Below are positions 11,730 through 17,406 of a stretch of 64,000 nucleotides of DNA, piece by piece. Position 1 is the stretch's first letter. Every line of letters starts with the position of its first letter. Where the stretch lies: the NCBI GenBank assembly GCA_902775355.1, contig CACYLY010000012.1, forward strand, positions 16,131-80,130, in the 5' to 3' direction. This DNA comes from Oscillospiraceae bacterium (GTDB taxonomy: Bacteria; Bacillota; Clostridia; Oscillospirales; Oscillospiraceae). The notes below the pieces were generated by a model. It was not told the origin of the DNA. It did no database searches and saw nothing but the letters and a program-made list of their open reading frames with translations. The translations under genes were made by a program, and so were the position numbers.

Positions 11730-12971
11730 TTACTTGGCCAGAACTTTTTTCAGCCTGGCGTAGCGGGGGAGGGAATGCTCCAGCGGGAGCTTCGGCTCGC
11801 CCTGGATCAGGGGCAGCACATAGTCGATAAACTCGTGCTTCAGGCCGTTGCGCTCCTCGTTGAGCCAGGAAAGAGGGATCTTCTTCTCGAAGTTGGCAAC
11901 CTTGTCAAGGGGCAGGAGCTTAATCCTGCAATGATAGTTTCCGTCCACTTCGTCCCGCTCGAAGGCGATCATTTTGCCGGTCACGCCGCTGACGGCCTGC
12001 TTCACAGCCTCTTCACCGGCCATGCGGGCTTCTTCGATATCAACGGCAGAGGCCAGGTGCGCACCGCAGCGCTGCAGAAGGCTCAGCTCGATGCCGCGGA
12101 CCTTGGCGCCGGTACGGCCTTTTACGATGGCGGCCAGCATGGCGGCAAGCCCGCCCAGCTGGGCATGACCGAAGCCGTCGGTCGCGGAGATCTTCGCCTC
12201 GGAAACAAAGCTGCCGTCGGCATAGTGGATGCCCTCGGACACGGCCACCAGGACCTTGCCGTTGGCGTCGTACAGCCGCTGGACGTCGTCCAGGAACTTG
12301 TCCATATCGAAGTCGACCTCAGGCAGATAGATCAGATCCGGACCGGAGCCGAATTCCGTCGCAAGCGCGGAGCTGGCGGCCAGCCAGCCGGCGTGACGGC
12401 CCATGATCTCCACGATGGTGACCATGCCGTTGTCATAGACCCGAGCGTCCTTGTTGATCTCCATGCAGGAGGTGGCGATATATTTGGCGGCGCTTCCGAA
12501 GCCGGGGCAGTGGTCCGTACCGTACAGGTCGTTGTCGATGGTCTTGGGTACGCCCATGATCCGGCATTCATAGCCCACAGACTCCATATAGCGGCTGATC
12601 TTGTTGCAGGTGTCCATGGAATCGTTGCCGCCGTTGTAGAAGAAATAGCGTACATTGTACTTCTTGAAGATTTCCAGAATGCGCTTGTAGTCTTTGTCGT
12701 CCTTTTCGGGATCGGCGATCTTGTAGCGGCAGGAGCCCAGGGCGGAAGAGGGGGTGTGCAGCAGAAGCTTCAGCTCTTCGGGATCCTCCTCGTCCATCAC
12801 GTACAGTTTGTCTTCCAGAACGCCCTTGATGCCGTTGGCGGCGCCGTAGACCTTCGTGATTTCCTCCGCGTCCAGCGCGGCGCGGATCACGCCGTAAGCG
12901 CTGGCATTGATGACGGCCGTGGGACCGCCTGACTGCCCGAATATGCATGCGCCGACCAGTTTGTTGCTCAT
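11730..12971 (-). CDS. pfp: Pyrophosphate-type 6-phosphofructokinase
   Basis: A 413-residue phosphofructokinase. It phosphorylates fructose 6-phosphate to the 1,6-bisphosphate in glycolysis. Two diagnostic positions point to pyrophosphate rather than ATP as donor. The nucleotide-site motif is GGNDS (residues 114-118), with Asp where ATP enzymes have the second Gly. The catalytic loop is PKTIDND (142-148), with Lys where ATP enzymes have Gly. PPi enzymes run both ways and save ATP, which fits an anaerobe. Divergent from fba, so two successive glycolytic genes share one 140-bp control region. Confidence 0.9.
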   Translation of the reverse strand: MSNKLVGACIFGQSGGPTAVINASAYGVIRAALDAEEITKVYGAANGIKGVLEDKLYVMDEEDPEELKLLLHTPSSALGSCRYKIADPEKDDKDYKRILEIFKKYNVRYFFYNGGNDSMDTCNKISRYMESVGYECRIMGVPKTIDNDLYGTDHCPGFGSAAKYIATSCMEINKDARVYDNGMVTIVEIMGRHAGWLAASSALATEFGSGPDLIYLPEVDFDMDKFLDDVQRLYDANGKVLVAVSEGIHYADGSFVSEAKISATDGFGHAQLGGLAAMLAAIVKGRTGAKVRGIELSLLQRCGAHLASAVDIEEARMAGEEAVKQAVSGVTGKMIAFERDEVDGNYHCRIKLLPLDKVANFEKKIPLSWLNEERNGLKHEFIDYVLPLIQGEPKLPLEHSLPRYARLKKVLAK

Positions 12972-13026: not shown

Positions 13027-13055
13027 TTGATTCTGGCATGGAATGAGAATATAAT
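13027..13055 (+). promoter_or_regulatory. Sigma-A promoter of fba
   Basis: TTGATT at 13027-13032, 17-bp spacer, perfect TATAAT at 13050-13055. It lies 57 bp before the fba ATG and inside the divergent pfp-fba intergenic region. Confidence 0.8.
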
Positions 13056-13112: not shown

Positions 13113-14081
13113 ATGGCTCTTGTAACTACAAAAGAAATGTTTGCCAAGGCTTACGACGGCGGATATGCCATCGGCGCCTTCAATGTAAACAATATGGAAA
13201 TCGTTCAGGGTATCACCGAGGCGGCAGGGGAGCTGAAGAGCCCCGTGATCCTGCAGGTCTCCAAGGGTGCCCGCGCCTATGCCAACCACACCTATCTGGT
13301 CAAGCTGGTTGAGGCCGCCATTATCGAGAATCCCGAGATCCCCATCGCCCTGCACCTGGACCACGGCGACAGCTTTGAGCTCTGCAAGAGCTGCATCGAC
13401 GGCGGCTTCACTTCCGTCATGATCGACGCTTCTTCCAAGAGCTTTGAAGAAAACATCGCCCTGACCCGTCAGGTCGTGGAGTACGCCCACGATCACGGCG
13501 TCGTTGTCGAGGCCGAGCTGGGCACGCTGGCCGGCGTGGAGGACGAGGTCGCTGTGGAACACGGCAAGGAGAGCTACACTCGTCCCGAAGAGGTGGAGGA
13601 GTTCGTCTCCCGCACCGGCTGCGACTCTCTGGCCATCGCCATCGGCACCTCTCACGGCGCCTATAAGTTCAAGGCTTCCCAGTGCACCCGCAACGCTGAC
13701 GGCATTCTGGTCCCGCCCCCCCTGCGTTTCGACGTGCTGCATGAGTGCATCAAGCGCCTGCCCGGTTTCCCCATCGTGCTGCACGGCTCTTCCTCCGTTC
13801 CTCAGGAGTTTGTGAAGATGGTCAACCAGTACGGCGGCAATATGCCCGACGCCATCGGCATCCCCGAGGATCAGCTCCGCGAGGCTGCGAAGCTGGCCGT
13901 CTGCAAGATCAATATTGACTCCGATATCCGTCTTGCCATGACCGGCAATATCCGCAAGTATTTCGCCGAGCATCCCGAAGCCTTTGATCCCCGTCAGTAT
14001 CTGAAGCCCGCCCGCCAGGCCGTGAAGGACATGGTCGCTCATAAGATCGTCCACGTTCTCGGCTCCGACGGCAAGGCCTGA
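13113..14081 (+). CDS. fba: Class II fructose-bisphosphate aldolase
   Basis: A 322-residue class II (zinc) aldolase splitting fructose 1,6-bisphosphate into the two triose phosphates. Seen are GAFNVNNMEI near the N-terminus, the metal/catalytic block HLDHGD at residues 81-86 (Asp83 as proton shuttle, His84 as zinc ligand), the AELGTLAGVED segment and the later HGSSSVP loop. The ATG at 13113 follows AAGGAG at 13100-13105; the longer frame from 13083 has no comparable site. It is divergent from PPi-phosphofructokinase and lies 52 bp before the P-type ATPase-like gene. Confidence 0.96.
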   Translation: MALVTTKEMFAKAYDGGYAIGAFNVNNMEIVQGITEAAGELKSPVILQVSKGARAYANHTYLVKLVEAAIIENPEIPIALHLDHGDSFELCKSCIDGGFTSVMIDASSKSFEENIALTRQVVEYAHDHGVVVEAELGTLAGVEDEVAVEHGKESYTRPEEVEEFVSRTGCDSLAIAIGTSHGAYKFKASQCTRNADGILVPPPLRFDVLHECIKRLPGFPIVLHGSSSVPQEFVKMVNQYGGNMPDAIGIPEDQLREAAKLAVCKINIDSDIRLAMTGNIRKYFAEHPEAFDPRQYLKPARQAVKDMVAHKIVHVLGSDGKA

Positions 14082-14133
14082 TCCCGCAATTTCGCAACCC
14101 ACTCAGAGAGAGATAACATTGGAGGTGGCAAAT

Positions 14134-15789
14134 ATGAGCCAAAGAAATACGCGCCCGAGATTTGCGGAAAAGGCGCCGAAACTTCCTGCCTTTTCTCCGA
14201 ACACGATATTATATGGACGCCTGGCCCTGGCTGCTGTTCTTCTGATCCTCGGCGCTTTCGTGTTCAAGAACCAGATCGTGCGCTATATCCTTCTGGTCCT
14301 GTCCGCGATCGCGTCCGGGTTTGACCTGGGCCTGAAAGCCTTTGACAGTGTTCTGGATAAAAAATACTTTGCAACGCCCATTGTGATGCTTTTTGTGGCT
14401 TTTGTCGCCTTCCTGATCGGCTATCCCTCCGAGGCTGCCGCGCTGCTTCTGCTCTACCAGCTCTGCCTGATGGCGCTGGATTTCTTCCAGAAACGCGCCC
14501 GCGGCGCCGCCATGCAGATGCTCCGGATCGAGGATCAGGAGCTGGCGGAGCAGGCAGAGGAGCGCTTCTCCGATGAAAAAGCCTGCAAGCTCAAGATGGA
14601 AGGGGAAGCCTACCGGAGCGCGGATCTCATCCTGAAGATCGCCATGATCTTCTCCCTGGTCTATATCTTCCTGCTGCCGAGATTGGGCGATTACAGCTAC
14701 CGTGTTTCCATCCACCGGGCGCTGATGATCCTGGTGGCTTCCATTCCCGCGTCTGTCGTGACCGCCATGCCCTTTACCGCGCTTACCGGTCTTTGCTTTG
14801 GCGCGCGCAACGGCATCCTCTTTAAGGACGGCCAGACGATGGAGGCTGCAGCCGACGCCAATGTGGTTGTGCTGGACAAGGCTGGCATCTTCTCCACCAG
14901 CGCTCCCGAACTGGAGGCCCTGCATTCCGACGTGCTGGATCAGACCACCTTCCTGAACTTTGTTGCCCATGCGGTGTACTACTCCGAGCAGCCCTTCGCC
15001 AAGGCGATCCCCACCCTGCCCGAGCAGGATTACAAGCTGGATGTCGTCAGCGATTTTGAAGATATTCCCGGCTGTGGCGTCGTCCTGAAAATCGGCGGAG
15101 CTCCTGTTGTGCTGGCTACCGGCGCTTATCTGGAGTCCAACGGCATTGCCGTTCCTCCCGTTGAGGAATCCGGCGAGATCTATTATCTCACCGTCAACGG
15201 CCGCTGCGTCGGCTATCTCTGCATCGTCTCCCAGGTAAACGAGAACGGCGCCGAGTTGGTGACCGGTCTTCGTGACGCCAATGTCCGCGAGCTTGTTCTG
15301 CTGACCGAAGACGGAGCAGGGGAGAGCCAGCGTATGGCCGAGGATCTGGGCTTCGACGAGGCCTTCGGCGAATGCGACACGGAACGCAAGCTCAAGCACA
15401 TCGAGGATCTGAACCAAGGCACCCGGAATCATGTGATGTTCGTGTATGCCAACGGGCTGGAGACCCACACGGCGGCGGACGTGGATGTTCGCCTGAGCCG
15501 GAAAGCCAAATTCGCTGATGTAACCGTACAGCCCGAGGATGCACAGGCGCTGCCGATGATCCTTCTCATCTCCCGTCGTATGTGCCAGGTAGCCAAATCG
15601 AACGCGATCTTTGTGTTCGCCGTCAAGGCCCTGCTGATCTTCTTGAGCATGCTGGGCTTCTGCAAGCTGTGGTTCGTCCTGTTCCTGGACGTCGCCGCGG
15701 TACTGGCGACTCTGCTGAACGCGATCCGCGTCACCAAGGATCCTCTGATCAATCTGGAGCGCTTCAGCGTCCCGAAGGAAGAGGAATAA
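14134..15789 (+). CDS. Degenerate P1B-type ATPase-like membrane protein (predicted pseudo-ATPase)
   Basis: A 551-residue membrane protein that follows the layout of heavy-metal P-type ATPases but has lost their catalytic residues. The line GILFKDGQTMEAAADANVVVLDKAGI (residues 227-252) matches the segment around DKTGT, here DKAGI. The membrane CPC metal site is replaced by SIP (203-205). The HP motif SEHP is SEQP (284-287), TGD is TED (391-393), and the GDGxNDAPAL hinge is ANGLETHTAADV (439-450). The actuator domain with TGES is missing between residues about 125 and 160. Hydrophobic segments are near 27-45, 50-66, 82-117, 165-182, 194-222, 492-510 and 512-530. It cannot be a normal ion pump. 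The start at 14134 has GGAGG at 14121-14125. Confidence 0.82.
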   Translation: MSQRNTRPRFAEKAPKLPAFSPNTILYGRLALAAVLLILGAFVFKNQIVRYILLVLSAIASGFDLGLKAFDSVLDKKYFATPIVMLFVAFVAFLIGYPSEAAALLLLYQLCLMALDFFQKRARGAAMQMLRIEDQELAEQAEERFSDEKACKLKMEGEAYRSADLILKIAMIFSLVYIFLLPRLGDYSYRVSIHRALMILVASIPASVVTAMPFTALTGLCFGARNGILFKDGQTMEAAADANVVVLDKAGIFSTSAPELEALHSDVLDQTTFLNFVAHAVYYSEQPFAKAIPTLPEQDYKLDVVSDFEDIPGCGVVLKIGGAPVVLATGAYLESNGIAVPPVEESGEIYYLTVNGRCVGYLCIVSQVNENGAELVTGLRDANVRELVLLTEDGAGESQRMAEDLGFDEAFGECDTERKLKHIEDLNQGTRNHVMFVYANGLETHTAADVDVRLSRKAKFADVTVQPEDAQALPMILLISRRMCQVAKSNAIFVFAVKALLIFLSMLGFCKLWFVLFLDVAAVLATLLNAIRVTKDPLINLERFSVPKEEE

Positions 15790-15800
15790 AAAGCAACCTT

Positions 15801-15840
15801 AAAGCCTCTAAAGCTTCTACTTTAGAGGCTTTTGTTCTTT
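15801..15840 (+). terminator. Terminator after the P-type ATPase-like gene
   Basis: Perfect 13-bp stem (15801-15813 with 15820-15832), six-base loop, then a T-rich tract. It closes the fba-pseudo-ATPase unit. Confidence 0.9.
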
Positions 15841-16407: not shown

Positions 16408-17406
16408 ATGAAACTGGACGAAATCAACGATGTTCCGGATATCGTGATGGAATTTCTGGAATATCACTCCACGGTACGCGGTCACTCCGACCGGACGGTC
16501 ATGGCCTACTATTTGGATCTGAAAATCCTGCTTCGTTTTTTGAAACGCCGCCGCAGACTGGTTGACCGCAGCGTTCCTTTTGATGAGATCGATATCACCG
16601 ATGTGGATCTGGATTTCATCAAAGCGATCAAAATCGAAGAGCTCTATCGTTACCAGTCTTTTTCGCCCGAATCGGACGCCTCGCTCTCTGCGGCCAGCCG
16701 CTGCCGCAGGACCTCTACTGTAAAATCCTTCTTTCAGTACTTGACCGCCAAACGACACCTTCTGGAGCGCAACATCACCCAGGAGCTCGATATGCCCAAG
16801 CGTCAGGCCAGTCTGCCGCGCTATCTGGAGGAATCAGAATGCGAAAAGCTGCTCAGCGCCTGCGATGGGCCCTACGGTCTGCGGGACTACGCTATTTTGA
16901 TGCTTTTCCTGTCCTGCGGGCTTCGGGTATCGGAATTGGTGGGTCTGAACGTAACCGACGTATATGAAGATCACGTTCGGGTCCTCGGTAAAGGCAACAA
17001 AGAACGTGTGGTCTATTTCGGCGACGGCTGCCGCGAAGCGATCGATGACTATTTAATGGTCAGAAATGACGAAAAACTGCCGGAAAAGGACAAAAAAGCC
17101 CTGTTTATCAGTCAAAAAAATTGCAGAATTGGAGTACGCGGCGTTCAGCAGATGGTCGAGCGAAAACTCCTCGCTGCGGGCCTGGATCCGGAACGATATT
17201 CTCCTCATAAATTAAGGCATACGGCTGCCACGCTCATGCTGAAAAACGGCGTGGACACCCGAGCGCTTCAGGAGGTTCTGGGACACAGCAATTTGAACAC
17301 CACCCAGATCTATACCCACCTGGATAACGCCGCCCTCCATGAAGCCGCCATGGCGAACCCCATCGGCCGTAAAACCCGGGAGCAGCGGGACGAAGAAGAG
17401 AATTAA
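16408..17406 (+). CDS. XerC/XerD-like tyrosine recombinase
   Basis: A 332-residue tyrosine site-specific recombinase with an N-terminal SAM-like DNA-binding domain (residues about 8-125) and a C-terminal catalytic domain. All catalytic residues are seen: Arg173 in GLRVSEL, Lys195 in LGKGNKER, His267 and Arg270 in HKLRH, His293 in LGHSN and Tyr302 in IYTH. The length and fold fit a chromosomal XerC/XerD, which resolves chromosome dimers at dif. Xer members also serve mobile elements, but I see no att sites, excisionase or cargo genes. AAAGGA precedes the ATG. Confidence 0.88.
   Translation: MKLDEINDVPDIVMEFLEYHSTVRGHSDRTVMAYYLDLKILLRFLKRRRRLVDRSVPFDEIDITDVDLDFIKAIKIEELYRYQSFSPESDASLSAASRCRRTSTVKSFFQYLTAKRHLLERNITQELDMPKRQASLPRYLEESECEKLLSACDGPYGLRDYAILMLFLSCGLRVSELVGLNVTDVYEDHVRVLGKGNKERVVYFGDGCREAIDDYLMVRNDEKLPEKDKKALFISQKNCRIGVRGVQQMVERKLLAAGLDPERYSPHKLRHTAATLMLKNGVDTRALQEVLGHSNLNTTQIYTHLDNAALHEAAMANPIGRKTREQRDEEEN

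Follow-up and report, generated by a model that had tools for sequence, protein, structure and literature searches.

Downstream of the glycolytic gene fba, an Oscillospiraceae bacterium carries a gene whose product resembles a metal-transporting P-type ATPase from which the working parts have been removed. Is this a pump in decay, or a protein that has been kept for a purpose other than pumping? The gene lies in a stretch of 64,000 nucleotides (GenBank assembly GCA_902775355.1, contig CACYLY010000012.1, positions 16,131 to 80,130 of the forward strand), which was analysed as a whole and is called the window below. A preliminary description, made from the letters of the window alone, had proposed a P1B-type ATPase that had lost every catalytic motif and might serve as a pseudoenzyme.

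The gene itself is sound. Its 551 codons run without a stop or a frameshift, and the GGAGG ahead of its ATG is the good ribosome-binding site that the preliminary description had made of it (Table 1). The terminator named in the same description is less secure: a terminator-like hairpin is indeed present after the gene, but such hairpins are no commoner in the window than in shuffled sequence (3 vs. 3.7 expected). A MAG from a separate deposition (L065), entered there as Lachnospiraceae bacterium RUI141, encodes a protein 99% identical to this one, which makes an assembly error an unlikely source of the gene. A 419-codon open frame also lies antisense to it (14209-15468, minus strand), and is probably a by-product of codon composition.

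The metal P-type ATPase (P1B) pattern noticed in the letters was borne out by profile searches. The protein matched TIGR01525 with an E-value of 4e-48 (164.6 bits, below the curated cutoff of 346) and the structure of a Cd P-type ATPase, 7qbz, with an E-value of 6e-25, while Pfam returned a weak E1-E2_ATPase piece alone (E-value 0.001). All 26 family members tested matched TIGR01525, and a profile built from 26 members matched ZntA (4umv) with an E-value of 4.5e-46. A simple hydropathy scan gave seven to eight hydrophobic segments. Descent from P1B ATPases is supported both by the significant profile match and by a tree position among the sampled P1B proteins, and the marks of the Zn/Cd (P1B-2) subgroup, a Lys and an Asp equivalent to K693 and D714 of ZntA, were found in 51/51 of the related sequences without an actuator (A) domain, hereafter A-less, that reach the site. 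Taken together, these comparisons indicate that the gene descends from Zn/Cd-type (P1B-2) P-type ATPases. Since the scores of the family fall below the curated cut-offs, annotation may miss the pseudo-ATPase or label it a metal pump.

Table 1. Coordinates of the features in the window (position 1 is its first nucleotide) and the basis for each
Feature	Position	Strand	Basis
Phosphofructokinase gene, divergent, conserved neighbour	11730..12971	-	PF00365
Sigma-70-like promoter match 5' of fba	13027..13055	+	Consensus match only
fba, class II fructose-bisphosphate aldolase, 322 aa, upstream partner	13113..14081	+	PF01116, 1.1e-101; conserved adjacency
GGAGG, ribosome-binding site of pseudo-ATPase	14121..14125	+	Precedes ATG; comparable site ahead of most relatives
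Pseudo P1B-type ATPase, A-less, 551 aa	14134..15789	+	Frame, homology, motifs, dN/dS
E100, equivalent of ZntA E202 (outlet Glu), retained	14431..14433	+	Weak ungapped match and alignment
Linker of 42 residues (M2-M3) replacing the 128-residue actuator region	14506..14631	+	Alignment vs. intact pumps
IPA for CPC, residues 204-206; metal-binding cysteines lost, Pro kept	14743..14751	+	Alignment
DKAGI for DKTGT	14875..14889	+	Alignment
SEQP for SEHP (motif His to Gln)	14983..14994	+	Alignment
TED for TGD	15304..15312	+	Alignment
YANGLE for GDGxND, hinge motif lost	15445..15462	+	Alignment
K498, equivalent of ZntA K693, retained	15625..15627	+	Alignment
D519, equivalent of ZntA D714, retained	15688..15690	+	Alignment
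Terminator-like hairpin 3' of pseudo-ATPase	15801..15832	+	Consensus match only
XerC/D-like tyrosine recombinase gene, downstream neighbour	16408..17406	+	In most genus loci reaching that far

No P-type ATPase should be able to complete its pump cycle once the A domain and the Mg hinge are gone, and both are missing here. The alignment agrees with the preliminary description on DKAGI, SEQP, TED, the lost GDGxND hinge and the missing actuator domain with its TGES. The cysteines of CPC are also gone as described, but the aligned residues are IPA, the reported SIP being one residue off. To say that every catalytic motif is lost is slightly too strong: CPC, DKTGT, SEHP, TGD and GDGxND are all broken, but DKTGT keeps its Asp and Lys and TGD its Thr, and the motif-III Lys (K419) is still in place. 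The losses extend to the 32 relatives found in the genus, where the TGES columns of the alignment are empty in 32/32, DKTGT and GDGxND are each present in 0/32, and the SEHP His is replaced by Gln in 30/32; the Pro of CPx is kept in 31/32. The shortening of the M2-M3 region, from 128 to 42 residues, was measured in nine genus members. Among 41 A-less proteins from genera g1, g64 and g125, neither the two CPC cysteines and the inlet Glu (E214 in ZntA, L112 here) nor the ATP-binding Glu of the N domain was kept (0/41 in both cases). The preliminary description had named two findings that would speak against it, intact motifs in close relatives and a frameshift in this copy; no intact DKTGT, GDGxND or A domain occurs among the 32 genus-level relatives, and the frame is unbroken.

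Could the gene nevertheless be a decaying pseudogene in which stops have yet to accumulate? The lost catalytic residues would fit, as would the fast divergence of the protein, which is only 31-49% identical in many genomes where fba is 93-98% identical. Against this stands the condition of the gene across the genus. A first search of 60 genomes with the pseudo-ATPase as query found a relative in 27 of the 37 genomes of the genus, and five more among the family-search matches listed bring the total to 32/42. The other genus relatives are 31-72% identical to the window protein, matched over most of its length, and none of the 32 frames has an internal stop (one, L024, is cut by a contig end). 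Pairwise dN/dS (Nei-Gojobori) was 0.034-0.215 in 18 of 19 pairs, eleven of the 19 being within the genus; the remaining pair was saturated, and several of the 18 have dS > 1. The window gene and its RUI141 counterpart differ by 37 synonymous and 5 non-synonymous changes. Such ratios mean that the gene is not drifting, and the invariant residues, ribosome sites and operon position have all been kept. A decaying gene is thus rejected by the dN/dS test and the intact frames, as the preliminary description had anticipated, and we give the pseudogene explanation next to no credence. Conservation, intact frames and purifying selection all favour the pseudoenzyme idea, and we regard the window gene as almost certainly a pseudoenzyme.

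Family-wide, the A-less members are at least those listed. No wider spread was seen in 295 order-level and 291 class-level genomes, searched at cutoffs of 1e-60 and 1e-66 that weaker members would escape: matches from outside the family all start at profile position 123 or later, past the first helices, as they do in intact pumps.

The position next to fba had been called odd. It turns out instead to be a conserved, operon-like pair. The count that the preliminary description had suggested gave fba directly upstream of the pseudo-ATPase in 31/31 genus loci that reach it and, among the matches listed, in 20/20 A-less loci of five other genera (g64, g125, g118, g51 and g102), whose proteins are only 22-30% identical to the window protein. 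From the end of fba at 14081 to the start of the pseudo-ATPase there are 52 nt, on the same strand, and the gap ranges from -29 to 75 nt across 51 loci. No terminator was found between the two genes on that strand in the window, and a hairpin candidate, a weak one, occurs between them in 1/51 loci. In the genus loci, the phosphofructokinase gene (pfk) is divergent beyond fba wherever the contig allows, and the Xer-like recombinase gene (xer) is sometimes inverted. Outside the family, no P-type ATPase was found within at most 1500 nt of fba in 21 genomes.

Two types of fba occur beside the pseudo-ATPase, 93-98% and 76-79% identical to that of the window (322 and 311 aa), and by parsimony on a quick pseudo-ATPase tree the type was exchanged in place at least four times, three of these exchanges being forced by starred branches. 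That the fba type switches while the pseudo-ATPase stays put argues against a finely co-evolved aldolase interface. Co-loss with fba is also weakened as proof of function. Ten genomes of the genus are without the pseudo-ATPase, and nine of them are also without this fba and pfk, giving distant matches or none; the tenth, G003, has both pfk and fba on a contig that ends 254 nt past fba. The xer gene of this locus is absent from all ten at a strict cutoff (E ≤ 1e-80, zero positive genomes). With pfk and xer missing too, co-loss does not single out the link with fba. Upper glycolysis may differ in the nine genus members that are without this pfk and fba (G004, G007, G009, G014, G023, G025, G026, G028 and G029).

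How did a pump come to this state? The family includes 106 genomes with this fba, and in 86 of them (60 of 70 listed, plus 26) we read on past the gene, in some for only 0-1500 nt; eight further fba-bearing family genomes carry known A-less proteins. Besides the A-less ones, a P-type ATPase was found downstream of fba at nine loci in eight genera, a weak antisense match (L230, E-value 6e-6) being left out. The pumps of g77 (L261), g55 and g57 are intact, that of g57 lying 2.3 kb from fba. In g27, g74, g117, g93 and g43, the phosphorylated Asp is replaced by Asn or Ser, GDGxND is lost and there is no intact TGES; a stretch as long as an A domain (121-129 residues) is still present in g27, g74, g117 and g93.

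A first tree was built from 73 of 122 gathered sequences, and a more careful one from 38 rows, with the A-domain columns removed and with five further rows of the genus, the g43 pair, L144, L145, the spoIIIA-linked set described below and most intact pumps left out. The A-less fba-linked proteins, the fba-neighbours of g27, g74, g93 and g117, the intact g77 pump and KL092, a near-intact protein that is not counted among the fba-linked ones, form one clade (SH-aLRT 98, and 100/100 in the careful tree), which excludes the fba-neighbours of g55, g57 and g43. Since the A-less proteins share their clade with the intact g77 protein, they form the dead end of a series that begins with a working pump. 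The ancestor was likely an intact pump downstream of fba, and we read the g77 pump (L261) as close to that ancestor rather than as a live close relative.

A single loss of the A domain was rejected by AU tests, both for all A-less rows (p 0.00097) and for g1/g64/g125 with g118/g51 (p 0.0013), the latter grouping having been picked after the trees were inspected. These tests indicate at least two losses of the A domain; a third separate loss, in g102, received no support (AU p 0.42). The g118 and g51 proteins retain CPC in 9/9 cases although they have no A domain, so in these two genera catalysis was lost ahead of the membrane metal site. The g118 proteins L133-L137, L140 and L141 carry a His/Cys-rich N-terminus (HGHDCTC...HHH), possibly a metal-binding tail. 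In g43, the fba-adjacent ATPases (L273, L274) have an Asn or Ser where a pump is phosphorylated, no CPC and a long branch, and possibly represent a separate loss. Two further degenerate P1B proteins of 513 and 578 aa, L144 (G131) and L145 (G167) from genera g95 and g26, group together in the tree; neither is counted among the fba-linked proteins.

In ZntA, the zinc site is made up of D714 and CPC, E202 promotes release and K693 pairs with D714, according to PMC6305203. In the A-less fba-linked proteins, the K693 and D714 equivalents are invariant among the sequences reaching them, as noted above, and the E202 equivalent is kept in 50/52 (the other two have Asp), an assignment made from a weak ungapped local alignment (4umv domain 1, i-Evalue 3.5) and from an alignment with intact pumps whose corresponding column holds Glu in 36/38. 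The membrane part as a whole was not preferentially retained over the P and N domains in the A-less set (11/65 positions each). In the absence of a general membrane bias, the outlet triad stands out as a specific feature. In the P domain, the 41 A-less sequences of g1, g64 and g125 keep D248 (93%), K249 (95%) and K419 (90%), and residue 391 is Thr or Ser in 38/41; of DKTGT the second Thr is gone, as are the TGD Gly and GDGxND. This pattern amounts to a partial HAD phosphate cradle (D248, K249, T/S391, K419) in the A-less fba-linked proteins.

The same genome encodes a second degenerate P1B protein of 658 aa, outside the window on contig C5 (L043:5986-7962), which adjoins a HAD gene and the spoIIIA operon. 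Twenty relatives (L275-L294) have the HAD gene nearby in 20/20 cases and spoIIIAA in view in 12/20. Counting the genome's own copy, TGES is intact in 0/21 of these spoIIIA-linked proteins, the Glu of TGE being missing in 19/21 and still Glu in two (QL275 and QL293). CPC is intact in 1/21 and the phosphorylated Asp kept in 8/21, the N-domain Glu is kept in 21/21 and His in 20/21, and the E202, K693 and D714 equivalents are found in only 2, 17 and 6 of the 21, respectively. The set keeps 34/65 conserved P/N positions vs. 4/65 membrane positions (p 5e-9) and groups as a separate clade in the first tree (11 rows). By these residue counts, the fba-linked and spoIIIA-linked pseudo-P1Bs have decayed in opposite directions.

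What, then, might the fba-linked protein do? The motor of the pump and the residues that use ATP are lost, yet the gene is kept under selection, and it therefore probably has a different, non-pumping job. The reading we lean towards, with rather better than even confidence, is that of a co-transcribed, non-catalytic membrane pseudoenzyme that would act as a sensor or docking platform. Co-transcription with fba is suggested by the lack of a detectable terminator between the genes. The platform at the membrane would consist of the helices that remain, with a polar site on their outlet side (E100, K498, D519), together with what is left of the P and N domains. Having lost the hinge acids, the partial phosphate cradle could hold a phosphorylated metabolite or partner without hydrolysing it. 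The most economical target would be the co-encoded aldolase or glycolytic flux. Taken as a class of role in itself, sensor or scaffold has in our estimate an even chance of being right, and that the aldolase is the direct partner is doubtful.

A motorless pump might instead work as a passive conduit for metal or protons, a channel or slow carrier making use of the outlet-side residues, and perhaps provide the aldolase with zinc or draw zinc away from it, aldolases of class II being zinc enzymes. The near invariance of E100, K498 and D519 is consistent with this, as are the CPC cysteines (both kept in 9/9) and inlet Glu (8/9) of the g118/g51 relatives and the His/Cys-rich N-terminus of the g118 proteins. 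The loss of those cysteines and the inlet Glu from all 41 proteins of g1, g64 and g125, however, leaves no clear cytosolic entry, and we consider a conduit unlikely. We are more sceptical still of a regulatory subunit that would modulate, or act as a dominant negative on, a live P1B pump. Paired active and inactive members do occur in other enzyme families, and motif-intact P1B ATPases (L042, L044) are encoded in the same genome, but their genes are on other contigs and the conserved link is with fba. The HAD-like P domain might also have kept some phosphatase or kinase activity through its Asp, Thr/Ser and Lys, in line with the strong conservation of D248, K249 and K419. With the Thr at D+2 and the hinge acids missing from almost every member, and with Glu in place of the Asp in three (L026, L027, L138), a surviving enzyme seems very improbable. 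Returning to the sensor or docking platform, a broader and frankly speculative version, which we think unlikely to hold as a whole, is that in this clostridial family, most of whose members are uncultured, P1B metal pumps were converted time and again into membrane receptors that do not pump, each kind at a fixed place on the chromosome. The fba-linked form would then relay an ion signal from outside the cell to aldolase or glycolysis through an outward metal/proton site and a metal-free phosphate cradle, and the spoIIIA-linked form would bind nucleotide and serve sporulation.

Dead enzymes, pseudokinases among them, are a familiar phenomenon. We found no report of a dead, degenerate or A-less bacterial P-type ATPase kept by selection, in a literature search that left subscription papers mostly uncovered; with coverage so limited, the absence of a precedent is weak evidence of novelty. 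Nothing related to fba-linked or spoIIIA-linked P-type ATPases was found either. The pseudo-ATPase-fba pair ties a membrane protein to central glycolysis. The place behind fba also offers an intact pump for comparison with partly and fully dead forms, so that the sequence of steps by which a pump is converted can be read and tested.

Among known systems, the ZntA/CadA-type P1B-2 ATPases (TIGR01512, TIGR01525; 4umv, 7qbz) are homologous to the window protein from M3 to the C-terminus (E-values 6e-25 to 4.5e-46). The equivalents of K693, D714 and E202 are kept as in ZntA; unlike ZntA and CadA, the window protein has no A domain, and its CPC, DKTGT, SEHP, TGD and GDGxND are broken. It shares with the spoIIIA-linked protein (L043) a P1B origin, degeneracy, genus-wide occurrence and a place beside conserved genes. 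The L043 type, in contrast, belongs to a separate clade, still has an A-domain region as well as the Glu and His that bind ATP, and loses TGES, CPC and most membrane ligands. Further afield, the guanylate cyclases of apicomplexans contain degenerate P4-ATPase domains that, as here, have a P-type fold without the signature residues (PMC6592433). They are eukaryotic, fused to a cyclase and of another P-type class, and A-domain loss, as in the window protein, is not mentioned for them in the portion of that source available. A regulatory role for the degenerate P4-ATPase domain is discussed in the same portion (PMC6592433), and this domain is, by analogy, the nearest published counterpart that we found.
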